From: Dyella psychrodurans
Lineage (GTDB): Bacteria; Pseudomonadota; Gammaproteobacteria; Xanthomonadales; Rhodanobacteraceae
DNA length: 64,000 nt
NCBI RefSeq assembly: GCF_003363265.1
Contig: NZ_QRBF01000001.1
Location: forward strand, 496,001-560,000
Direction of reading: 5' to 3'
The position numbers and the translations under genes were made by a program. Of this stretch, positions 3,184 to 64,000 are shown in pieces. Every line of letters starts with the position of its first letter. Positions within the stretch are counted from its first letter, which is position 1. Below the pieces are notes generated by a model, which saw nothing but the letters and a program-made list of their open reading frames with translations, searched no databases and was not told the DNA's origin.

Positions 3184-5748
3184 TCAGAACTTGTACTTGG
3201 CCTGGAAGTTGACCTCGCGCCCTTCGATGGAGCGCGCCAGAATCACGCCGCCGCCGCTGGCAAAACCAAACAGGCGCGCATTGCCTTCGGTGACGCCGAT
3301 CTGGTTGGTCATGTTCGTGCCGCGCAAGGTCAACATCCAGTTCTGGCCGATGTTGGCGATGGCGCCGATGGCCAGATCGTAATAGCTGCCTAGCGGCTGC
3401 TGTTCAAGCTGGTCGCTGAAGCGGTTCCCCACATGCTCGTAGGTCAGCCAGAATTTCATGCTGCCCCAACTGGTGGGAATCTCGTACGCCGGCGTCACGC
3501 GGTACTGGACTTTCGGCTGGCGATCCAGGTCCATGCCGTTGATGCTGCTGCACTCGTTGTTGCCGTTCTGCGCCACGTAGGGGACGCAGCTGTCGTAACC
3601 GGAGTAATGGCCGTCCATGTAATCGCCGCTCAAGGACACTGTGAAATGCTTGAATGGCGTCAGGATCACCTGAGTGTTGAGGCCCTTTGTCGTGGAGCCG
3701 TACACCAGATTGATCTGTCCGGTATCGAGCGTAATCGAATAGGGCACGCCGTGGAAAAGCCGGCGATACGCACTGATATCGGCATAGATCCACGGCGACT
3801 GGTATTTGAAGCCCAGTTCCATGTTGTGGATCTTCTCCACCGGGGTGCTCGGCAACGGCTGAATGTTGTCGAACGTGGGCAGGAACACGCCATCGTTCAC
3901 ACGCGCGTACACGCTCATATTGTTGTTGATCGCGTAGTTGGCGCCGACGGTCCAGGAGGTCGCGCTCTTGGAATACGACGGATGCTGGAAACTGTTGATC
4001 AGGTACTCCGCATCGTTGTTGTACACCGTATACGGATTGGCATCCAGATCGCCGGACGTCGTGTTCTGGAACCAGCCGTTGATATCAACGTACTGCACGC
4101 GTGCGCCACCATCGAAACGCCAGTTGCCGATATTCCAGGTGTCCGCGGCAAAGGCTGCCGTGGTGGTGGCATGCCAACGTTCGTTGAACGCCATCCAGGA
4201 TTGCGGCTGGTTGTTCCAGAACAGCCCTTGGCCGTCGGTGAGCTGATAGGTGTTGGTGCCATCGCTCAGGTTGACGACGATCGGATTCGGATTAGTCTTG
4301 GACTGCATCAACATGTTCAGGCCATCGTTCTCCGAATGGCTTTCCGAATACACCGCCGTGTAGTTCCCCAAGGTCAGCGTATTGCCATCGAACAGGTCCT
4401 TGCTGATGTGGAACTCGTTGCTCACGGACTGAATGTGCTTATGAATGTACTCAGGGTTCTGAACGGTGACGTTCTCATTCATATTGGCGGGCTTGCCGTT
4501 GGTGTATGTAGCCGTCGCCGCGAGGTTGGACGGAAGCCCAAAGGCTGCTTCCGAACTGGAGATGAAGCTCCCCAACGTCATCGGGTTTTCACCCGTGCTG
4601 AAAAATGCGGTGGTATCCATGTTTCCGCCCACCAGGATGAACTTGTCTGACAGCGACCAGCCGTTCTGGAAGTCCAGGTCAAGGTTGCCGCCCACCATGT
4701 GCACGTCGCCGCCCTGACCATTGGCCATGTCGATGTTCACGCCCGCCGGTGAGCAGCCCGGCGTAAAACACGGCGTGGTTTGCAGGAACTGGTAACGATC
4801 CGCGTTGCTGCCGAAGGTGCCCGTCAGCGGGTTGAAGCCCGGATACGGTGAAAACTTGCCCGGCGCCGGGTTGTAGATCGGCGTGTCGGTGACGAACTGG
4901 TTCTTGTCCTGCAGTTCTCGCGCATAGAACATGATCGAACCGTATTCCAGGTCGTGGCTCAGCGTCGCGGTGAGCTGGCCGCCCTTGTCGGCGGCGAATT
5001 GCGGGTCGCGCACGCCATCGGATTTGCGCCAGAAACCGCCGATGCTCCCGTACCAGCCACTGTCCTTGCCAAAGAGCGGAAAGCCGTAGAACCCATCCAG
5101 GCGCACCATGCCTTCCGATCCGTACGTCACGCCCACGTCGCCGCCGGGCGTGGAAGTCCCCTCTTTGAGGATGAAGTTCGCGATGAGGCCGGGCTGCCCG
5201 TTCCCGAAGAGCACCGATGGTCCACCCTGCACGGTCTCCACGCGATCGATGCTGTCGTCGAGGCGGAACATCGCGTCGGTGAAGTACTCCCACTGCGGGA
5301 ACAAAGGCGAACCATTGAGCTGCAGCGTCACGAACGGCGCGCCGCTGTCCGAAGGAAAGCCCGCGACTTCGATATTTGCACCGGTCTGACCACCGGAAGA
5401 TTCCGGATAGATACCCGGCGACATCTTCAAGAGATCGGCCGTGCTGATCGGATTGAGTTCCTTGATCTGCTCGCTGGTGGCGCTGGTGGTCGAGTAGCTG
5501 GCGTCTATCTTGCGAATGCCGCCGAAGTTGGTATTGCCGGTGACCACCACCTGGTTGAGCGTGGTGGCCTCTTGTTTCGATTCGCCGCCCTGTCCCCGGG
5601 CGGTCTTGGCTTTGTTCTGGCCCTGGTCGGCGGACGACGCGGCCGCAGGCTGTGATGTCGTGTTCTGGGCCTGTGCGGCGCCGGCCATCAACATGGCGCC
5701 GATCGCCACCGTGAGTGCGCGCCGACCGATCTGCTTGCAACTGCTCAT
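3184..5748 (-). CDS. TonB-dependent outer-membrane receptor (carbohydrate type)
   Basis: An 854-residue receptor starting at ATG 5748, preceded by an excellent Shine-Dalgarno (GGAGGAGG, 5 bases away). MSSCKQIGRRALTVAIGAML then AGAAQAQ is the signal peptide. A Gln/Ala/Ser-rich linker leads into a TonB-box-like NQVVVTGN, then the plug (IKELNPISTADLLKMSPGIY; IDRVETVQGGPSVLFGNGQP) and a 22-strand-type barrel ending in Phe (VNFQAKYKF). The plug and the signal are of the kind seen in xanthomonad receptors that take up sugars rather than siderophores. It is followed by the GH63-like gene and preceded by a TTGTACTACAA palindrome about 165 bases upstream of the start, linking it to the galactonate regulator. 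It probably imports a galactose-containing oligosaccharide. Confidence 0.92.
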   Translation of the reverse strand: MSSCKQIGRRALTVAIGAMLMAGAAQAQNTTSQPAAASSADQGQNKAKTARGQGGESKQEATTLNQVVVTGNTNFGGIRKIDASYSTTSATSEQIKELNPISTADLLKMSPGIYPESSGGQTGANIEVAGFPSDSGAPFVTLQLNGSPLFPQWEYFTDAMFRLDDSIDRVETVQGGPSVLFGNGQPGLIANFILKEGTSTPGGDVGVTYGSEGMVRLDGFYGFPLFGKDSGWYGSIGGFWRKSDGVRDPQFAADKGGQLTATLSHDLEYGSIMFYARELQDKNQFVTDTPIYNPAPGKFSPYPGFNPLTGTFGSNADRYQFLQTTPCFTPGCSPAGVNIDMANGQGGDVHMVGGNLDLDFQNGWSLSDKFILVGGNMDTTAFFSTGENPMTLGSFISSSEAAFGLPSNLAATATYTNGKPANMNENVTVQNPEYIHKHIQSVSNEFHISKDLFDGNTLTLGNYTAVYSESHSENDGLNMLMQSKTNPNPIVVNLSDGTNTYQLTDGQGLFWNNQPQSWMAFNERWHATTTAAFAADTWNIGNWRFDGGARVQYVDINGWFQNTTSGDLDANPYTVYNNDAEYLINSFQHPSYSKSATSWTVGANYAINNNMSVYARVNDGVFLPTFDNIQPLPSTPVEKIHNMELGFKYQSPWIYADISAYRRLFHGVPYSITLDTGQINLVYGSTTKGLNTQVILTPFKHFTVSLSGDYMDGHYSGYDSCVPYVAQNGNNECSSINGMDLDRQPKVQYRVTPAYEIPTSWGSMKFWLTYEHVGNRFSDQLEQQPLGSYYDLAIGAIANIGQNWMLTLRGTNMTNQIGVTEGNARLFGFASGGGVILARSIEGREVNFQAKYKF

Positions 5749-5912
5749 GAAACCTCCTCCCCAAAGACGTATGACGGGTTTTCCCCGGACTCCCCGCAGT
5801 GACGGCAACGCACTGGCGTTTCCTTCTGCAGCCGCCGCCTTGCTCCTTGTTTCCGCGTCCAGGTCACCGGCTATGCCGCCGGTGGGGCGTCATCCTAACT
5901 GAAAATTTTAAT

Positions 5913-5923
5913 TTGTACTACAA
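5913..5923. promoter_or_regulatory. Probable DgoR-type operator (TTGTACTACAA)
   Basis: A perfect 11-bp palindrome with a central base, lying in the AT-rich promoter region of the TonB receptor. FadR-subfamily GntR proteins bind short palindromes of the form TNGTNNNACNA, and the E. coli galactonate regulator DgoR is known to use a site of this very shape. A near copy sits in front of the GH42 gene. The link to the local regulator is inference. Confidence 0.6.
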
Positions 5924-5931
5924 TATTAAAA

Positions 5932-5944
5932 TACTTCTGAAGTA
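5932..5944. promoter_or_regulatory. Perfect 13-bp palindrome TACTTCTGAAGTA
   Basis: Found 8 bases from the DgoR-type site, in the same AT-rich stretch. The arms TACTTC/GAAGTA differ from the DgoR-type palindrome, so a second regulator may act here. No other copy was noticed in the window. Confidence 0.35.
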
Positions 5945-6151
5945 GGAAAAGACAAACGTCGATCAGCCTGCTTGATGGGAGGTCGGGAGGAGTGGGAGCA
6001 GCAGCGCTGCAAGGCCTCTGAATGACGGTAAAAACCGCCTCTAGCGCGCTGATTTTTCTGGCGCCTAAGCGCTAAGGGATGGCCGGCTGCGGCAGGATGC
6101 GGATAGCATCGCCGTGCGTTCCGGCGCATGCGCAAACCTCACACAATACGC

Positions 6152-7036: not shown

Positions 7037-8371
7037 TTACGTGGCGGTCAACACCTGATCGAGCGTATCCAGGAAATGCTCCGCATTAGCCTGGCTGAAG
7101 ACGATAGGCGGCTTGATCTTCAGCACGTTGTCATCGGGTCCCTCGGTGGACAACAGCACGTGGTGCGCTTTCATCGCTTCGACTACGGCCTTGGCCCTGG
7201 TCCGGTCCGGGGTTCTGGTATCAAGGTCTTGCACGAACTCCGCACCGATAAAAAGCCCCTGCCCGCGCACATCGCCGATACGGGCATGACGTCGTTGCAG
7301 ATCGCGCAAGCCGTCTAGCAAGAACGCGCCCACGCGGCGCGCATTTTCCTGCAACTGCTCCTCCTCGATCACATCGAGCACCGCCAACGCGATGGCACAG
7401 GACACCGGATTGCCGCCGAAGGTATTGAAGTACTCCATGCCCGTGACGAAACTGGCGGCGATCTCCGGTGTTGTCACCACCGCACCGATGGGATGGCCAT
7501 TGCCGATGGGCTTGCCCATTGTGACGATGTCCGGCACTACACCCTGCCCTTCGAACGCCCAGAAATACTGGCCGGCACGACCAAAACCCACTTGCACTTC
7601 ATCGGCCAGGCATACACCGCCGGCAGCGTGAACCGCTGCGTAAGCCTCCGGTAGATAGCCCTCCGGCAACACGTGCTGACCGCCACATCCCAGCAGCGAT
7701 TCGCAATAGAAGGCGGCGGTTGCGACATCGCGTGCGCGCAGATCAGCCATCGCCGACCGCAACAGCCGGCCATACTGTCGGCCGGCTTCCAGGCTGCGGC
7801 GAAACATGCCGCGATACGTATCGGGCATCGCCACCACGCCCACGTGTGCCGCCTGGCCTTCCCCACCCTTGCTGTTGAACTTGTAGGGACTCAGTTCGAT
7901 CATCGACGGCGAATGACCGTGGTAGGCATGATCCACCACGATCACGCCGCGCGCTTTGGTGTGCGCACGCGCCAGGCGCAGAGCCAGATCATTGGCCTCC
8001 GTACCGGAGTTGGTGAGGAAGACCACCGACAAGGGCTTGGGCAATGTGGCGGTCAGGCGCAAGGCGTATTCGACGATGTTGTCGTGCAGATAACGCGTGT
8101 TGGTGTTGAGCCTCGCCATCTGCGCCTGCCCGGCTTCGACGACACGAGGATGGCAGTGGCCGACGTGGCAGACGTTATTGACCATGTCCATGTAAGCCTG
8201 ACCATCCTGGTCATAGAGCCACACACCTTCGCCGCGCACGATCTTCAATGGTTCCTTGTAGGAGACGCTCAGCGTCGGATTCAACCATTGCTTGCGCAGC
8301 TGGAGGATCTCGGCATTGCTCCGTTGCGGCACGCTGTCCAGCACGGGGCGAAGGGCACGGGTATCAATCAT
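7037..8371 (-). CDS. Class III aminotransferase-fold PLP phospho-lyase (AGXT2L-like)
   Basis: A 444-residue fold-type I PLP enzyme. Key segments are [51 protein letters not shown] (cofactor Asp) and [15 protein letters not shown] with the Schiff-base Lys. [10 protein letters not shown] and the YRGMFR region are those of the AGXT2L group, whose characterised members are ethanolamine-phosphate and 5-phosphohydroxylysine phospho-lyases rather than true transaminases. The start at 8371 gives an 8-base overlap with the upstream kinase stop, so the two are translationally coupled. In many bacteria the same two activities are fused in one long chain; here they are separate. A conventional omega-transaminase role remains possible. 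Confidence 0.8.
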
Positions 8372-56231: not shown

Positions 56232-57038
56232 TTACTTTCCTCCCGCTGTCAGCATCACCGCGGCCTCGGCAGTCAGCTGCAGGAAAGTAAACGTCTCCTG
56301 CACATACAAGTGAACGCTGCGTTCGGAGTGGCTCAGGTAGCCGATGGAGAAATCCCGGCCCAGGTGAAGCTCGAAATCGCCCCCTCGCGTGCTCATCACC
56401 ACGCCACCCTTGATCGCCGGTGCCCAGATGATGTCGCCATCCACGAGATGTTGAATGTCCCTGACGACGGGATATCCCTCGTCGGTGGCGCCACTGATTT
56501 TCGTATACGGTTGCTCGCCCAATAAAAGCGTGTAGGGACCGTTGACGCCTGCTTCGCGCAGACGGCTCACCGCTTGCGCTATCGCGGCAGGATAGTCGCC
56601 CACCTTCGCAGGCAACGTCACCGCCTTGTTGCTGGTTCCCCGGCGAATACCCGCTATGCCGGCCGCTTCGTAACCTTCGAAGATCGCTCCGTCTTCGGCA
56701 AAGGCGATCTTGCGCGCGGCGTCCTTGAGCGGCTGAAGATCGGGATCGTTGGCGCCACGCTCCACGGAATCGACGGCGTGACGCGACAGTTCGAAGGGAA
56801 CCCGCAGTTCCACGACAGCCTTGACGTCCCGCAAGACGGCTTGGACACCATCGGCCGGAGGCTTGATGTCCTGCACGTGGCCAGTACCTACCGCGGAAAA
56901 CTCGAAACCTTTCGGCCCCACCACGTCCACGACCCGCCGCGCAGCCAAATGGCGTTTCAGCGTCCTCGATGCTTCCTGTTCGATCTGTGCCCATGCGCCT
57001 TCCGAAATCGGCGCAAGTTTCCGGTGAAGATTATTCAT
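56232..57038 (-). CDS. Family 1 encapsulin shell protein
   Basis: A 268-residue HK97-fold nanocompartment protein. MNNLHRKLAPISEGAWAQIE, TLKRHLAARRVVDVVGPKGF, the E-loop region with VELRVPFELSRHAVDSVERG, RGTSNKAVTLPAKVGDYPAA and the terminal RDFSIGYLSHSERSVHLYVQ then ETFTF are the conserved blocks of family 1. The length is typical of T=1 shells (about 265). The start overlaps the DyP stop by 8 bases, which should keep shell and cargo in coupled synthesis. Confidence 0.94.
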   Translation of the reverse strand: MNNLHRKLAPISEGAWAQIEQEASRTLKRHLAARRVVDVVGPKGFEFSAVGTGHVQDIKPPADGVQAVLRDVKAVVELRVPFELSRHAVDSVERGANDPDLQPLKDAARKIAFAEDGAIFEGYEAAGIAGIRRGTSNKAVTLPAKVGDYPAAIAQAVSRLREAGVNGPYTLLLGEQPYTKISGATDEGYPVVRDIQHLVDGDIIWAPAIKGGVVMSTRGGDFELHLGRDFSIGYLSHSERSVHLYVQETFTFLQLTAEAAVMLTAGGK

Positions 57039-58056
57039 GGGGGGGTTCTCCTTTGAGCGAACCGATACCGAGCGAACCATCCGATACGCGCGGCTGAGAT
57101 TCGGAAACATCCGCCTTTGCGCCGGGTTCGGCAGGCACATTGGCCAGGAAGGTGGCGGATGGCACGAAAAACAGCGAGCCGGTGACGGCCTTGCTGACGT
57201 CGAGCAGGCGATCGTAATTGCCGGGCGGGTTGCCGACGAACATGTTGTCGAGCATCCGCTCGATCCGGCTTGGCGACCGCGCATAACCGATGAAATACGT
57301 GCCGAACTCGCCCTTGGCCGCGTCGCCGAACGGCATGTTGTCGCGCAAGATCTCCAATTGCTCGCCGTTCTCGACAATGGTCGTGAGGGCGTTGTGCGCA
57401 TAGGCGGGTTTTACGGCATCGTCGAGTTCGATGTCCGAAAGCTTCTTCCTGCCGACGATCCGCTCCTGCTGTTCGACAGGCAAGGCATTCCACGCCTGCA
57501 AGTCGTGAAGGTACTTCTGCGTGATCACGTAGCTTCCGCCGGCGAAGTTCGGATCTTCCTCCCCGATGATGGTCGCATCGATGGCATCCTGGTCGACCGG
57601 ATTTTCCGTACCGTCGACAAAACCGAGCAAGTCGCGCTCGTCGAAATACTTGAACCCGTGAACTTCGTCGGCCGTGGAAACGGCATCGCGGATGCGCGAC
57701 ATGATTTCGTTCGCCAGCTCGAAGCACAGATCCATGTGCGCGGCACGGATATGAAACAGCAAGTCTCCCGGCGTGGAGACCGCGTGGTGCACGCCTCGAA
57801 TCTCGCGAAAGGGATGCAAATCTGCGGGTTTCGGCTGGCCGAAAAGACGATCCCATGCATCGGAACCGAAAGCCATGACGCACGATAGACGACCACTGGG
57901 GTCGCGAAATCCCACAGCCCGCAAAAGCGATGCCAGGTCGCCGCAAAGCGTTCTTACTGACTCATCGTGCCCAGGCTCCGGTTTTAAGGTCACCACCAGA
58001 AAAATAGCGGCTCCTGTGAGCTTGGCGATAACTGGTTGCGGAATGACGGAAGGCAC
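57031..58056 (-). CDS. DyP-type peroxidase, encapsulin cargo
   Basis: A haem peroxidase of 341 residues if started at GTG 58056, where PSVIPQPVIAKLTGAA matches the usual DyP start and GAGG lies about 8 bases upstream. ATG 58101 would add 15 residues and run into an inverted-repeat element (58080-58210), so GTG is preferred. DLLGFVDGTENPVDQDAID is the GxxDG motif with the distal Asp; AYAHNALTTI holds the probable proximal His, and GTYFIGYARSPSRIERMLDN is also conserved. After a Pro/Ala linker the chain ends in DGSLGIGSLKGEPPHE, the classic encapsulin targeting peptide. Confidence 0.93.
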   Translation of the reverse strand: MPSVIPQPVIAKLTGAAIFLVVTLKPEPGHDESVRTLCGDLASLLRAVGFRDPSGRLSCVMAFGSDAWDRLFGQPKPADLHPFREIRGVHHAVSTPGDLLFHIRAAHMDLCFELANEIMSRIRDAVSTADEVHGFKYFDERDLLGFVDGTENPVDQDAIDATIIGEEDPNFAGGSYVITQKYLHDLQAWNALPVEQQERIVGRKKLSDIELDDAVKPAYAHNALTTIVENGEQLEILRDNMPFGDAAKGEFGTYFIGYARSPSRIERMLDNMFVGNPPGNYDRLLDVSKAVTGSLFFVPSATFLANVPAEPGAKADVSESQPRVSDGSLGIGSLKGEPPHE

Positions 58057-58079
58057 TATCGATTCCTCACGAGTTGGTT

Positions 58080-58210
58080 CTAGGGTCTGTTTGCCCGCCA
58101 TCCGGCGTCATCGCTCAGTCGTGTACGGACGTACACTCCTTCACTCTTCCTTGGCTGGCGTGCAAACAGCTCCCGGCGCGGGCCACGCGAATAGTGTGAA
58201 CAGGCCCTAG
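58080..58210. repeat. MITE-like nested inverted-repeat element
   Basis: 131 bases bounded by CTAGGGTCTGTT (58080-58091) and AACAGGCCCTAG (58199-58210), inverted repeats with one mismatch. Inside, GTTTGC-CGCC near 58089-58099 faces GGCGTGCAAAC (58158-58167), and the centre has GTGTACG/CGTACAC. The nested design and position between two divergent genes suggest a non-autonomous mobile or REP-like element. No coding frame is credible. TGGTTCT flanks it on both sides, 6 bases off on the right. Confidence 0.55.
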
Positions 58211-59116: not shown

Positions 59117-60754
59117 ATGAAGAACAGGACAGGGTCATCCGTGCTGTACCAGGTGGCGGTGGTATTGGGTTACCTCGCCGTCTACACCCTCATTCGTCCC
59201 GTGTCCGACGCCCATTGGGAACTGACTTCGGGTCTTCGCCTCGCCCTGCTGTTGCTCGTCCCCTACCGATATTGGGCAGCTTTGGCCGTGGGTGACGCGA
59301 TGGCGTCTGCCTACCAGAGCAGCCTCTCCGTATCGCAGTTCGGGCTTGCCTGGGCCGTGGTGAACTCCGTGCCCTTTATTGCCCTGGCCATGCCGGTGGT
59401 GTGGCTGTGCAAGGAAAAACTCGCGCTTTTTCCGTCCAAGCGAGTCGTCAACTTCCAAGCGCTGCTGCTGTGCACGCTGGTGGTTCCCATCATCTGGTCG
59501 CTCGCCAACTATGCGGCGATGTCGCTGGCGAAAAATCCAGGCGTCGAGATAACGCCCATCCTGCTGGTTTATCTCTTTGTCGGTTCTTACGTCGCCCTGC
59601 TGACGACCATCCCCTGGGTCATCATCGCCAAACTCGAATTCCGTAACGGCATGTGGCTCAACCGCCTGCGCGGGTTCGTCAAAGGTTCGCTGGCCCTCGA
59701 TGCCGCCGGCATCCTCATTCCCTCTCAACTGATCTTGTCGTGGCTGACCTTGCACGGCAAAGAAGACAAGCAGGTCTATTGCCTCTTCATGTTCCTGCCG
59801 GTGGCCTGGCTGACCCTGAAGCACGGCTGGCGAGCCGCTGTGATGGGCGGAACCGTCGTGGTCGCCTGCATCAACGTATTGATGAATTACGACACGCCCG
59901 ACGCCATGGTCTTGCAAGTTCAGTCCATGATCGCCTTCGCCATCACCTGCCTGATCGCCATGGGTGCGCGTATCTCCGCGCTGCATCAACGCGAGGAACA
60001 GGAACACGTCGACGTCAAGCAGGCGATGCGGCTGGCCAGGCAAAGCCTCTACGTGGGCGAAATGCGCTTGCGCCAGGCTTCGGAAACGCTGGAATACGTC
60101 TGCGGGGAAATGCAGGTCACTCAAAACCGGTTGCTCAACCGCTTCCGGATGATGCTACCGGCCAACGAAAGCCAGATGTATTCCAAGCAGGCGGCCACCG
60201 CTCAGGAAAAGATGTACCAGATCGCCGATGCGATGCATCCCATCGCCTGGCGACGCCGGGGTTTGCGTGCAGCCTTGCGCGAAAACCTGGGGCGCGCACT
60301 GGATGAAGCGGGCGTCGCCTACAACTATCAAGTCAAGGGGCGCGGCTTCGGCGCGCACGCAGCGAACCTTCACACCATGATTTATCGCCTCGCTTGCGAA
60401 TCGGTGGTGTACATCTGCGCGAACGTGCGTTGCTCCGATATCCGCCTGACGCTGCGCGGCATCGATATCGACGGCAATCGTCTCGTGGTGCTGCGCGTTG
60501 ACGGTCAGCTGGATGCCTCCACCGACGACAGCTCCTTCTTCAGGGAAGGTCAGCGGGACCGTCTCGCGCACAAGCTTGGCGTGACAGGATTGGACCTCGT
60601 CGAACTCAGGGACCACGTGCAGCTGTTCAACGGCGAATTCCACGTTCGACCGATGGAAAAAACGTTGCGGCTGACATTCCTGCTGCAAGACGTCGCCGAA
60701 AAAGAGTGGGAGCACTTGTCGGCCCCCACTCCTATGCGGCTATGGGCCAGCTAG
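59117..60754 (+). CDS. MASE1-like membrane sensor with degenerate histidine-kinase domain
   Basis: A 545-residue protein. Residues about 10-285 hold eight or so membrane helices of the MASE1 type (TSGLRLALLLLVPYRYWAAL; LVVPIIWSLANYAA). A helical linker leads to a region resembling a HisKA_3 kinase: MYQIADAMHPIAWRRRGLRA with a candidate His at 374, then ESVVYICANVRCSDIRLTLR where the N-box should be, and LGVTGLDLVELRDHVQLFNG in place of the G-boxes. The usual ExxxN spacing and a GxGxG motif are missing, so ATP binding is doubtful. It may signal by protein contact. No response regulator lies beside it. Confidence 0.78.
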   Translation: MKNRTGSSVLYQVAVVLGYLAVYTLIRPVSDAHWELTSGLRLALLLLVPYRYWAALAVGDAMASAYQSSLSVSQFGLAWAVVNSVPFIALAMPVVWLCKEKLALFPSKRVVNFQALLLCTLVVPIIWSLANYAAMSLAKNPGVEITPILLVYLFVGSYVALLTTIPWVIIAKLEFRNGMWLNRLRGFVKGSLALDAAGILIPSQLILSWLTLHGKEDKQVYCLFMFLPVAWLTLKHGWRAAVMGGTVVVACINVLMNYDTPDAMVLQVQSMIAFAITCLIAMGARISALHQREEQEHVDVKQAMRLARQSLYVGEMRLRQASETLEYVCGEMQVTQNRLLNRFRMMLPANESQMYSKQAATAQEKMYQIADAMHPIAWRRRGLRAALRENLGRALDEAGVAYNYQVKGRGFGAHAANLHTMIYRLACESVVYICANVRCSDIRLTLRGIDIDGNRLVVLRVDGQLDASTDDSSFFREGQRDRLAHKLGVTGLDLVELRDHVQLFNGEFHVRPMEKTLRLTFLLQDVAEKEWEHLSAPTPMRLWAS

Positions 60755-60956: not shown

Positions 60957-61248
60957 AAAAGCCACCCTTTACAGTGCCGGGCACCATTGCCCGCGCCAAT
61001 CTTGCAGTAAATCAATGGATTGCACTGTGATCTGCACACTCCAAATTGACTGAATTTAGGGTTTTTCGGCCTGAAATCGCTGTCGTCGGCCTGGGTTGCA
61101 TGGCATGGCATGCCGCACTGCAGCGACGCGGACCTTTGGCCACGGCCGGCCCTGCTGGCGTGAATAGCTGGCGAACGCTGTAACGATGACCGCGCCGTCC
61201 ACGAAAACCGAGTGGTAGTTTTCATTGGACGGGCTTGTGGGAGCGGTT
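60957..61248. other. Divergent region before the metallopeptidase gene
   Basis: 292 bases between the small secreted protein and the gluzincin gene. It holds the promoters of both; 61021-61070 is the more AT-rich part. GGGAG precedes ATG 61249. No other feature was seen. Confidence 0.35.
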
Positions 61249-62226
61249 ATGAAGCGTCGACGCTTTCTACAGATGATGGGCGGCCTTGCAGTCGCTGCAT
61301 GGTCGCCTTGGCGCGCTGTCGCCCAGAGTTACGACGATCCCGAAGACATCCATGCCCGATTGAAAGGGACGCCCGATCTGAAGCTGGTGATGGGAAACGG
61401 CGACATCTCCGTCGTGATTGCGGGCGATTCCTCTCCGCTCGACAAGCGCCGAATCGAAGTTTGGATCAGGCGAAGCGCCACCGCCGTATCGACGTACTTC
61501 GACCGTTTCCCCGTCGACCACTGGGGTTTGCTCGTTGTCCCTGAAGACGGAGGCCATGTCGGCCCCGCCACCACATGGGGATATGCAGGTTCGATCACGC
61601 GTGTCGGCGTAGGGCGCGAGGTGTCGGAGGAGTATTTGCGAAACGATTGGGTGCTGGTACATGAGATGACCCACCTGGCGCTCCCGCGAGTACCGATGCG
61701 CAGCGAGTGGTTCATGGAAGGCAACGCCACCTACGTCGAGCCCATTGCACGCGCACAGGCCGGACAGATGCCGCCACAAGAAGTCTGGCGCTGGGCCGTC
61801 GACGACATGTCCAAAGGACAGCCCCAAGCCGGCGACAAAGGGCTGGATCATACGCATACCTGGGGAAGGACATACTGGGGCGGCGCCATGTATTGGCTGC
61901 TTGCCGAACTGGCCATCTACAAAAAAAGCGATGGACGATATCGCCTGCAGGACGCACTGCGCGCGATCAACCGTGCAAGCGGCGGCAACACGGCATCCTG
62001 GAGCGTGGAACAAGCGACTCACGCAGGAGATATCGCCGTCAAGAGCGACGCGTTGACCTCGCTTTACGATGAACTTAAAGATCGCCCGGTCACCGTCGAC
62101 CTCAATGGCATGCTTCAGCAACTCGGCGTTTCAGAAGTTGCGGGCGTCATTCGCTTCGATGATCGTGCTCCGCTCGCCGAACTGCGCCGCTCGATAACTT
62201 CCCCGCGCGGTCGTTCGCAGACATGA
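61249..62226 (+). CDS. Exported gluzincin-type zinc metallopeptidase
   Basis: A 325-residue protein starting at ATG 61249 with GGGAG upstream. MKRRRFLQMMGGLAVAAWSP is a twin-arginine-like or Sec signal. The active site is DWVLVHEMTHLALPRV (HExxH) with the third ligand in SEWFMEGNATYVEP, the gluzincin pattern; TWGRTYWGGAMYWLLAELAI is a buried helix. It lacks obvious accessory domains. It lies 134 bases upstream of the borosin methyltransferase on the same strand, so a role in trimming the modified peptide after export is conceivable but unproven. Confidence 0.85.
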   Translation: MKRRRFLQMMGGLAVAAWSPWRAVAQSYDDPEDIHARLKGTPDLKLVMGNGDISVVIAGDSSPLDKRRIEVWIRRSATAVSTYFDRFPVDHWGLLVVPEDGGHVGPATTWGYAGSITRVGVGREVSEEYLRNDWVLVHEMTHLALPRVPMRSEWFMEGNATYVEPIARAQAGQMPPQEVWRWAVDDMSKGQPQAGDKGLDHTHTWGRTYWGGAMYWLLAELAIYKKSDGRYRLQDALRAINRASGGNTASWSVEQATHAGDIAVKSDALTSLYDELKDRPVTVDLNGMLQQLGVSEVAGVIRFDDRAPLAELRRSITSPRGRSQT

Positions 62227-62360
62227 CATCGAACGGCGAGTCGCTGCGTCCGACAGACGCAGCGCGTTGATGCGTAACCGACGGGTGTCCACACGCTCAA
62301 GCAGTCCCTGCCCCCGTCGCCCCCGTGCGCCACGATGAGAAATTGCCCTACTATCGGGCC

Positions 62361-63197
62361 ATGAATACACCTGGCTCGGCGACACCGAACAACGCTCCCC
62401 GCGGCAGCGTGGCCTGCGTTGGCCTGGGTATGACCCTGGGTTCTCATCTCACGCCGCTGGCGCGCAGCTACATCGAAAAGTCGGATGTGGTGTTCGCGGG
62501 GCTTTCCGACGGCATCGTGGAGTTATGGCTCCAGCGCATGCATACGGATGTGCGCAGCCTTCAGCCCTATTACAAGGAAGGCAAGTCGCGGATGAAGACC
62601 TATCGGCAATGGGTCGAGCTGATGATGGCCGAGGTGCGTGCAGGCAAGCGCGTCTGCGGGGTGTTCTATGGGCACCCGGGCATCTTTGCGTGGTCGCCGC
62701 ACAAGGTTATTGAAGTCGCGCGCGCGGAAGGCTACGAAGCGCATATGGAGCCTGGCATTTCCGCGGAGGATTGCCTTTATGCGGACCTGGGCATCGACCC
62801 GGGCCGCTTCGGCTGCCAGCATTTCGAGGCCAGCCAGCTGCTTTTTTATGAGCGCCGCATCGACCCGTCCGGGTATCTGGTGTTGTGGCAGGTCGGGCTC
62901 GTCGGCGATCGCTCGCTGGGCCGTCGCGAGACGGGACCTGCGTACCGGCAGGTGCTGGTCGACCTGCTGAGCCAGGACTACCCGCTCGACCACGAAGTGA
63001 TCATCTATCGAGGGGCGACGCTGCCGATCGAAAAACCGCGCGTCCGCCGCGTGGCTTTGCGCGACCTGCCGCATGCTCCGCTGACAGCGGAGGAAACGGT
63101 GGTACTGCCTCCGGCTGTCGCCTTGAAGCTCAACGTCGCCATGCGGGAGCGGCTGGAGGCATTGGATAAGCTGGAGAGGACGAACACCGTCGTATAA
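62361..63197 (+). CDS. Borosin-type peptide backbone alpha-N-methyltransferase (SonM-like, split)
   Basis: A 278-residue SAM-dependent enzyme of the tetrapyrrole-methylase fold. GSVACVGLGMTLGS (residues 15-28) is the first SAM loop, VFYGHPGIFAW (101-111) and EPGISAEDCLYADLGIDPG (130-148) line the pocket, and HFEASQLLFY and YLVLWQVG follow. YPLDHEVIIY and LPIEKPRVRRVALRDLPHAP match the C-terminal part of SonM of Shewanella. The borosin catalytic set Tyr-x5-Arg-x3-Tyr is present at Y71, R77 and Y81. The chain stops without a fused core, so it belongs to the split class. It would iteratively methylate amide nitrogens of the partner peptide encoded 199 bases downstream. The start codon lacks a strong SD; an upstream GTG (62325) is possible. 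Confidence 0.9.
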   Translation: MNTPGSATPNNAPRGSVACVGLGMTLGSHLTPLARSYIEKSDVVFAGLSDGIVELWLQRMHTDVRSLQPYYKEGKSRMKTYRQWVELMMAEVRAGKRVCGVFYGHPGIFAWSPHKVIEVARAEGYEAHMEPGISAEDCLYADLGIDPGRFGCQHFEASQLLFYERRIDPSGYLVLWQVGLVGDRSLGRRETGPAYRQVLVDLLSQDYPLDHEVIIYRGATLPIEKPRVRRVALRDLPHAPLTAEETVVLPPAVALKLNVAMRERLEALDKLERTNTVV

Positions 63198-63282
63198 AGG
63201 AAGTTCTTGGGTGCGGAACGATCCTTGCTTGTGCGGTACCGGTTGGGGAAAGCGTGTCCAATGGCATTCGGTGCCACCCTGA

Positions 63283-63302
63283 GGGCCAGGGAAATGTGGC
63301 CC
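63283..63302 (+). promoter_or_regulatory. Hairpin between methyltransferase and precursor genes
   Basis: GGGCCA (63283-63288) pairs with TGGCCC (63297-63302) over GGGAAATG. In RiPP operons such stems often limit read-through or protect the precursor transcript. No T-run, so partial attenuation or processing is the better guess. Confidence 0.35.
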
Positions 63303-63396
63303 GGATGAGATCCATCGCGTGGATAACCGCATGATATGGGCGTGCCGGCCCCATCAAACCGCACGTACGACCATCACAGGAGATAGGGGGAATCGC

Positions 63397-63681
63397 ATGA
63401 CGGACACGATCGATTTGCTGGAGGCCATCGGACAAGATGCCTCTCTGCGTCACGCATCGACCGAAGAATTGACCCATATGCTCAAACAGGCGCAGGCGTC
63501 CGAAGCGCTCACGGCCGCCGTGGCATTCGGCGACAGCACTTGGTTGTTCGAGGAATTCGGGCGCATGCAGAATGAACCGCCGCAGTCCAGCCAGACGCCC
63601 GGCCACGAAGACGAGCCCGAAGAGGAAGAGCCGCTGGAAGTTCCGGCTCCCGGCAAGGGCAAACCGTCGTCCAAGTCGTAA
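63397..63681 (+). CDS. Candidate split-borosin precursor peptide (94 residues)
   Basis: MTDTIDLLEAIGQDASLRHA opens a helical leader, and ALTAAVAFGDSTWLFEEFG (residues 38-55) completes it. The pattern LLxxIGQDAxL ... GD ... L..FG matches the borosin-binding domain of SonA, itself related to the LigA/Nif11-like fold. AGGAG and GGGGG precede the ATG, a strong ribosome site suited to high output. Residues 57-94 are the expected core region: a Gln/Ser/Pro stretch, an acidic run EDEPEEEEP, then LEVPAPGKGKPSSKS. This is far more polar than known borosin cores, and the methylated positions cannot be read; L80-A84 is the only mildly hydrophobic spot. It could instead be a partner protein that is not methylated. 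Confidence 0.72.
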   Translation: MTDTIDLLEAIGQDASLRHASTEELTHMLKQAQASEALTAAVAFGDSTWLFEEFGRMQNEPPQSSQTPGHEDEPEEEEPLEVPAPGKGKPSSKS

Positions 63682-63692
63682 GCGCAGTTCGC

Positions 63693-64000
63693 ATGTCCCG
63701 GCTGTCAAGCCGCGCCACCCCATGGCTCGCCATAGCGGCCATGGCTTGGTGCGCGCTCGTGCAGCCCGTTCACGCCACCACATCCATCACCCATCCCGCC
63801 CAGTTCCTCGATCAGGCCGAAAAACTGCGGACGGCGGATCATCCGCAGTTCGTCCGCATGCTGGAACAGATCCACCAAGAGACACCGCGGCTTAATGCAA
63901 GCGAACAGTGGCAACTGCGCTATCTCGATGCATGGGAAACCATGTACGAGGGTAATTACGCCAAGTCCGAGATCGCGTTTCGCGACGTTATCGATCACTC
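63693..64000 (+). CDS. Exported TPR-like sensor protein, N-terminal part (possibly a GGDEF protein)
   Basis: The frame opens at ATG 63693, 11 bases after the precursor stop, and runs off the window. MSRLSSRATPWLAIAAMAWC then ALVQPVHA is a signal peptide. FLDQAEKLRTADHPQFVRML and QWQLRYLDAWETMYEGNYAK look like TPR-type helical pairs. In xanthomonads such N-termini often precede a membrane helix and a GGDEF domain, but the C-terminal half is not visible and the assignment is inference. The tight spacing and the lack of a terminator suggest cotranscription with the precursor. Confidence 0.7.
   Translation, partial: MSRLSSRATPWLAIAAMAWCALVQPVHATTSITHPAQFLDQAEKLRTADHPQFVRMLEQIHQETPRLNASEQWQLRYLDAWETMYEGNYAKSEIAFRDVIDH

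Follow-up and report, generated by a model that had tools for sequence, protein, structure and literature searches.

Three adjacent genes on the forward strand of the window (the whole 64,000-nucleotide stretch of Dyella psychrodurans DNA that was analysed) encode a SonM-type methyltransferase, a small precursor protein, and a membrane receptor in which a TPR domain is joined to a GGDEF domain (Table 1). By sequence, the first two genes almost certainly form a true split borosin pair. The locus looks more like a signalling module than a natural-product cluster, and we consider it rather likely that the product acts on the adjacent receptor, as its ligand or as a regulator.

Table 1. Coordinates of the three genes and of the precursor regions in the window
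Feature	Position	Strand	Basis
SonM-type alpha-N-methyltransferase, 278 aa	62361..63197	+	phmmer match to SonM; mapped residues; Pfam TP_methylase
Borosin precursor, 94 aa	63397..63681	+	profile of relatives retrieves SonA first; downstream of enzyme in 20/20 closest loci
Borosin-binding domain, residues 1-55, five predicted helices	63397..63561	+	AlphaFold model; fold matches
Putative core region, residues 61-72 (PPQSSQTPGHED)	63577..63612	+	SonA-like spacing; pN/pS
Acidic, disordered tail, residues 73-94	63613..63678	+	model; composition; pN/pS
TPR-TM-GGDEF receptor, first 102 codons (of 591 aa)	63693..64000	+	Pfam GGDEF (1e-38) and TPR; topology

Identity of the methyltransferase and its precursor

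Pfam assigned the enzyme to the TP_methylase superfamily at 1.5e-19. A phmmer search of PDB sequences gave SonM (7ltc_A) as the best match (E 4e-73, enzyme residues 15-265), with 120 of 251 aligned residues identical (47.8%). OphMA-type enzymes ranked next (2e-50 to 5e-47), whereas corrin methylases reached E 0.002 at best. All nine NCBIfam matches, including those to corrin/siroheme methylase and YabN models, lay far below their cut-offs. In the alignment, Y71, R77, Y81 and Y103 of the enzyme correspond to Y58, R67, Y71 and Y93 of SonM, and F109, W176 and Q177 to F99, W166 and Q167; the available passages of PMC8429565 connect these SonM residues with catalysis, the binding of the cofactor and loop closure. 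Y71, R77 and Y81 were retained in 128 of 129 aligned enzyme sequences. The initial annotation, which had described a SonM-type alpha-N-methyltransferase matching across its length with Y71, R77 and Y81 as the catalytic set, was therefore correct on both points.

Searched singly against PDB sequences, the precursor gave no convincing match (best E 0.35). When 38 relatives were combined into a profile that excluded SonA, the seven SonA sequences were its first seven PDB matches (2e-5 to 1e-4), followed by a non-SonA match at E 0.18; the best SonA match was a gapless alignment over SonA residues 1-67. This supports the earlier suggestion that residues 1-55 of the 94-residue neighbour resemble a borosin-binding domain. 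AlphaFold predicted helices at residues 2-13, 15-18, 22-31, 36-44 and 48-54, with the remainder at low confidence. Ten of the 13 PDB fold matches of this model were SonA chains and one was OphA, the best E-value being just 0.98. SonA has a five-helix bundle at residues 1-53 and its core at residues 62-71 (available passages of PMC8429565), and the putative core of the window's precursor lies at the same distance from the N-terminus.

The pair thus shows several features of a type IV split borosin: a separate SonM-like methyltransferase gene, the catalytic and SAM-side tyrosines, and a precursor with a five-helix N-terminal borosin-binding domain (from profile and model; the fold E-values are weak). 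The proposal of a split borosin pair is borne out by the sequence profile, the catalytic residues, the predicted fold and the conserved neighbourhood. The pair joins the known split borosins; as had been noted, these already include SonM-SonA from bacteria (PMC8429565, available passages), and the split architecture itself is not new. The accompanying statement that borosins are the sole RiPPs with backbone N-methylation needs correction, since EreM is a non-borosin enzyme that performs this reaction (available part of PMC11285071).

When 83 type A precursors (see below) were compared codon by codon in 263 pairs, pN/pS was 0.26 for residues 1-55, 0.75 for the linker, 0.43 for the core region (61-72) and 0.67 for the tail. 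The values for the binding domain and the core region indicate that the gene is under selection and that the core is constrained. By sequence pattern, 87 of 116 precursors, including that of the window, were type A, with a polar core (often PQ-x-T/S-Q-x-PGHEE, with proline at residue 68) and an acidic tail. The other 29 were type B, with a more hydrophobic core, often containing cysteines, and acid residues after it. The hydrophobic share at residues 57-67 was 0.25 in type A vs. 0.54 in type B. According to the available part of a review (PMC11285071), the substrates of tested borosin enzymes have mainly hydrophobic cores. The putative core in the window fits a borosin core in position and constraint; however, its composition is polar, whereas the cores of known members are mainly hydrophobic.

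Tail length differed with gene context. Receptor-adjacent precursors (n = 129) had on average 31 residues after position 66, 35% of them D/E, as compared with 16.5 residues and 22% D/E in precursors away from a receptor (n = 19). In Luteibacter sp. dw_328 a single enzyme gene is followed by seven precursors in an array (L120 7885-10141); six of these are short (68-77 aa) and stop just past the core region, and the seventh is acidic-tailed and precedes a receptor gene. Two further loci, L049 (two precursors, 5602-6149) and L163 (one precursor, 7953-8183), have the enzyme, no acidic tail, and no downstream GGDEF gene.

The receptor gene and its linkage to the precursor

The receptor gene starts 11 bases past the precursor and runs out of the window; the complete gene is found at L021 9694-11469, in the window's genome. 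It was absent from the initial annotation, whose locus ended 11 bases short of it. The product has, in order, a signal-like N-terminus, a TPR domain, a membrane helix (residues 391-408) and a GGDEF domain with GGEEF from residue 500. In the L021 translation GGEEF is preceded at five residues by RPTD, which is likely the RxxD inhibition site, so that the third gene has both the GG(D/E)EF active site and the RxxD site of diguanylate cyclases. In each of 129 distinct receptors the GGDEF domain is preceded by a single hydrophobic stretch, behind which basic residues outnumber acid ones, and residues 101-300 contain two or more cysteines; 116 of the 129 also have an N-terminal hydrophobic stretch. 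On these features the TPR part is predicted to be periplasmic and the cyclase cytoplasmic. C187 and C217, which are invariant across a 35-row alignment of the TPR domain, may form a disulfide, as would fit a periplasmic location.

The model of the TPR domain was good (mean pLDDT 90). Its top PDB neighbours were LGN/Pins structures with partner peptides, and Rap/NprR-type peptide receptors made up 11 of the best 50 PDB fold matches listed. The ligands of TPR folds are proteins of many kinds. Right behind the receptor gene in the window's genome lies the gene for another GGDEF protein, which also has MASE1 and PAS domains (L021 11528-13798), and in L218 (4359-6089) the receptor is split into two ORFs, one for the TPR part and one for the GGDEF part.

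In all of the 20 closest loci a precursor lay downstream of the methyltransferase, and a homologue of the TPR-GGDEF receptor was the sole further gene common to all; no conserved protease, exporter or immunity gene was seen in these 20. Because the only additional conserved gene encodes a membrane receptor, and no protease or exporter is conserved, the locus reads less as a natural-product cluster, and a signalling role is the best explanation of the conserved adjacent receptor.

Linkage was quantified in 61 genomes. A TPR gene was present 0-900 nt downstream on the same strand at 73 of 76 precursor places. Conversely, 72 of 84 TPR places had a precursor upstream and 12 had none; 68 of the 84 had the enzyme within 8 kb, and 12 of the remaining 16 still had a precursor upstream. 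A TPR place was found within 8 kb of 57 of 65 enzyme places and was lacking at 8, with 7 weak matches (E 7e-7 to 4e-4, 28-32% identity) omitted from the 65. By genome, 37 had enzyme and TPR gene, 2 the enzyme only, 1 the TPR gene only and 21 neither (Fisher p 4e-13, relatedness ignored). The bond between precursor and receptor is thus tighter than that of either with the methyltransferase, suggesting that several pairs share one enzyme.

A wider set of loci gave a similar arrangement. A GGDEF ORF (counted if the domain was within 2.6 kb downstream) followed 141 of 154 distinct precursors at a median of 15 nt past the last sense codon; GG[DE]EF was present in all 141 and RxxD in 119. The enzyme loci were the best matches to the window's enzyme rather than a random sample, and some genomes occur in the wider listing more than once. 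After removal of identical proteins there were 122 enzymes, 8 of which were excluded because the locus ended within 2.7 kb. Among the 114 with at least 2.7 kb downstream (L021-L164), 104 were followed by a precursor and a GGDEF gene, 2 by a precursor only, 2 by a GGDEF gene only and 6 by neither; 4 of these 6 had a GGDEF gene within 4.5 kb upstream.

Tandem precursor-receptor units behind a single enzyme were found in 10 loci. The window's genome has one enzyme, two precursor-receptor pairs and 26 GGDEF places in all, so the pairing singles out a few of many cyclases. The second pair, on contig 2 (L183 4641-6797), consists of a type B precursor gene (101 aa) separated by 9 bases from a TPR-GGDEF gene (613 aa); no methyltransferase gene lies nearby. 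A further genome (G013, 86% complete) has a precursor-receptor pair and no enzyme match. One methyltransferase probably serves several pairs, some of them elsewhere in the genome, and would then act in trans.

The named close relatives of the genome belong to Dyella, Rhodanobacter, Frateuria, Fulvimonas and Luteibacter; the earlier description of the genome as xanthomonad-like can accordingly be narrowed to Dyella/Rhodanobacteraceae. Two records labelled Candidatus Eremiobacteraeota (L085 and L153) have Dyella-like enzyme genes (87% and 70% identity) and are probably a mislabelled bin.

When SonM was searched against genomes of another order within the class, 61 of 247 gave matches, at 92 places. 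In one locus, with 93% identity to SonM, a TPR-GGDEF ORF starts immediately behind the stop codon of the SonA-like precursor. Of 20 SonM-like loci hand-picked from the 92 places, 16 had a GG[DE]EF ORF within 2.2 kb of the enzyme; the other four include L231, whose GGDEF domain lacks the motif, and L223, which has a TPR-histidine kinase-receiver gene. L225 has two TPR proteins without GGDEF, and no receptor-type gene was seen near the enzyme in L229. In a sample of the class the enzyme was present in 10 of 369 genomes, two of them from the window's family. The gene row in L175 is precursor, TPR-histidine kinase-receiver, enzyme and TPR-GGDEF; that in L176 is enzyme, precursor and TPR-histidine kinase. 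L177-L182, whose neighbours were compared with the window's genes only, gave no match to its receptor. The histidine kinases of L175, L176 and L223 and the GGDEF-less TPR proteins of L225 indicate that, among the receptors found, the TPR part is constant and the output varies.

Proposed role of the product and its alternatives

On balance, we favour a three-gene signalling module whose TPR receptor has the methylated peptide as its ligand and controls the c-di-GMP level. By homology to SonM-SonA, the methyltransferase would bind the helical domain of the precursor in trans and N-methylate the backbone of the core behind it. The methylated peptide, either freed or still bound to its precursor, might then be recognised by the TPR superhelix, predicted to be periplasmic, of the receptor encoded next to it. 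Ligand binding would make the cytoplasmic diguanylate cyclase more or less active and so shift the c-di-GMP level. Methylation, release or export through the inner membrane, binding, and the direction of the effect are the steps that we infer.

Several observations count for a signalling role: the linkage is kept without a nearby enzyme, the units are duplicated together, the output is swapped while the TPR part is kept, and the TPR model resembles LGN/Pins and the Rap/NprR receptors. Others count against it. The precursor has no signal peptide and the 20 closest loci show no conserved exporter or protease, which leaves the route to the periplasm unaccounted for. Type A cores are polar and have proline at residue 68, whereas tested cores are mainly hydrophobic. 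There are also the 12 of 84 TPR places without a precursor, the 8 of 65 enzyme places without a TPR gene, and the enzyme-less G013.

Coevolution between core and TPR domain was considered and dropped, and this too counts against the signalling role: the partial rank correlation of their distances was only 0.05 and 0.08 once other distances had been removed; core distances correlated rather with the GGDEF part (0.33-0.34 after correction). Nearest-neighbour prediction of the precursor type did not separate the partners either (TPR 112, enzyme 111 and GGDEF 112 of 116).

It is unlikely that the product is instead a secreted N-methylated RiPP acting outside the cell, with the adjacent receptor sensing another cue and merely tuning production or lifestyle. 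Known fungal borosins are secreted-type products, the receptor here is one without a demonstrated ligand, and four loci (L214, L215, L219 and L222) have genes for a GNAT acetyltransferase and a pepsin-like protease upstream of the enzyme, in the manner of a tailoring cluster. However, the receptor accompanies the precursor even where no enzyme is near (12 of the 16 unlinked TPR places), precursor and receptor duplicate jointly, and the 20 closest loci show no conserved exporter or immunity gene. The GNAT acetyltransferase and pepsin-like aspartic protease genes, which also occur near the enzyme in L073, may function in tailoring or maturation. As a general maturation enzyme the pepsin-like protease was rejected: Pfam Asp was found in only 3 of 61 relatives and was absent from the window's genome.

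Still less probable is a modified precursor that remains in the cytoplasm as a small protein partner of the cyclase or kinase and regulates it directly, with another cue being sensed by the TPR domain. The lack of a signal peptide and of a visible exporter would be explained, and the long acidic tail of receptor-adjacent precursors and the residual correlation of the core with the GGDEF part point the same way; but where the output is a histidine kinase, or where no output domain is present, it is still the TPR part that lies beside the precursor. It is very improbable that the locus encodes a corrin-type methylase, or an inactive relative, next to an unrelated small protein: the Pfam superfamily is common to both and weak NCBIfam matches to corrin-type models exist, but SonM at E 4e-73 against 0.002 for the top corrin methylase settles the comparison between borosin and corrin-type methylases that the initial annotation had proposed, the catalytic residues are retained and the precursor profile retrieves SonA, and on the PDB and NCBIfam values a corrin/siroheme methylase identity was dropped.

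The peptide-ligand reading can tentatively be extended, with a little less than even confidence, to gammaproteobacterial split borosins at large, SonM-SonA included. These would largely be backbone-methylated peptide signals, each precursor moving and duplicating with its own membrane TPR receptor, with a cyclase or a histidine-kinase phosphorelay as output and one enzyme maturing several precursors in trans. Should the precursor, with its methylation, prove to control c-di-GMP via the receptor beside it, backbone N-methylation of ribosomal peptides would be a bacterial signalling chemistry, and many natural peptide-receptor pairs would be there for study. At the enzyme level bacterial split borosins are well studied, and the literature passages available assign the product no role; the pairing, kept despite a distant methyltransferase or a changed output, makes that role directly testable.

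Known systems and other features of the region

The locus shares with SonM-SonA (Shewanella oneidensis SO1478-SO1479, type IV; PMC8429565, available passages) a separate methyltransferase and precursor, the catalytic residues (47.8% enzyme identity), and a five-helix domain followed at equal spacing by the core. The relative 93% identical to SonM has a TPR-GGDEF gene directly behind the precursor, as in the window. In contrast to the hydrophobic core of SonA, the window's core (PPQSSQTPGHED) is polar; its precursor also has ~22 extra residues in the acidic tail, and the window's genome has the second precursor-receptor pair on another contig. The words "GGDEF" and "tetratricopeptide" are both absent from the main text of PMC8429565. 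In the available part of PMC11395268, borosin types 0-XI are listed and the legend of Figure 1 explains a GGDEF label, so GGDEF has already been drawn in a borosin scheme. Split types V-X of that paper resemble the locus in their split architecture, and the scheme of at least one type has a GGDEF element. Our search, outside which the likeliest papers lay, found no literature linking borosins with c-di-GMP, diguanylate cyclases or tetratricopeptides.

The Rap/NprR-type (RRNPP) receptors offer a comparison of how such a system may work, with no membership claimed: there, too, a peptide gene lies beside a TPR receptor gene, and the TPR fold is similar. Such receptors reside in the cytoplasm, and their ligands are re-imported peptides without modification. 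The TPR part encoded in the window differs in being predicted periplasmic and fused to GGDEF.

The ORF upstream of the enzyme (61225-62226), which has an HExxH-like motif, was rejected as a maturation protease, since Pfam found nothing in it and fewer than 5 of the 20 closest loci contained a match to it. A riboswitch was likewise rejected: Rfam gave a single chance-level match in 62100-64000, and only tmRNA reached the gathering score in 10 loci. The gap between enzyme and precursor was poorly conserved among 12 sequences except for the stretch just before the start codon. In L021 8100-11700 no promoter-like site was found, and there were five terminator-like sites (3.1 expected), all on the opposite strand or inside the receptor gene.

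Elsewhere in the window, a MASE1 membrane protein is encoded at 59117-60754 (+), in which Pfam shows no GGDEF or kinase domain at the threshold used. At 56235-58101 (-), genes for a Dyp-type peroxidase and an encapsulin shell protein lie side by side (Pfam 3e-58 and 2e-99), and the C-terminal stretch of the peroxidase resembles an encapsulin cargo tag.
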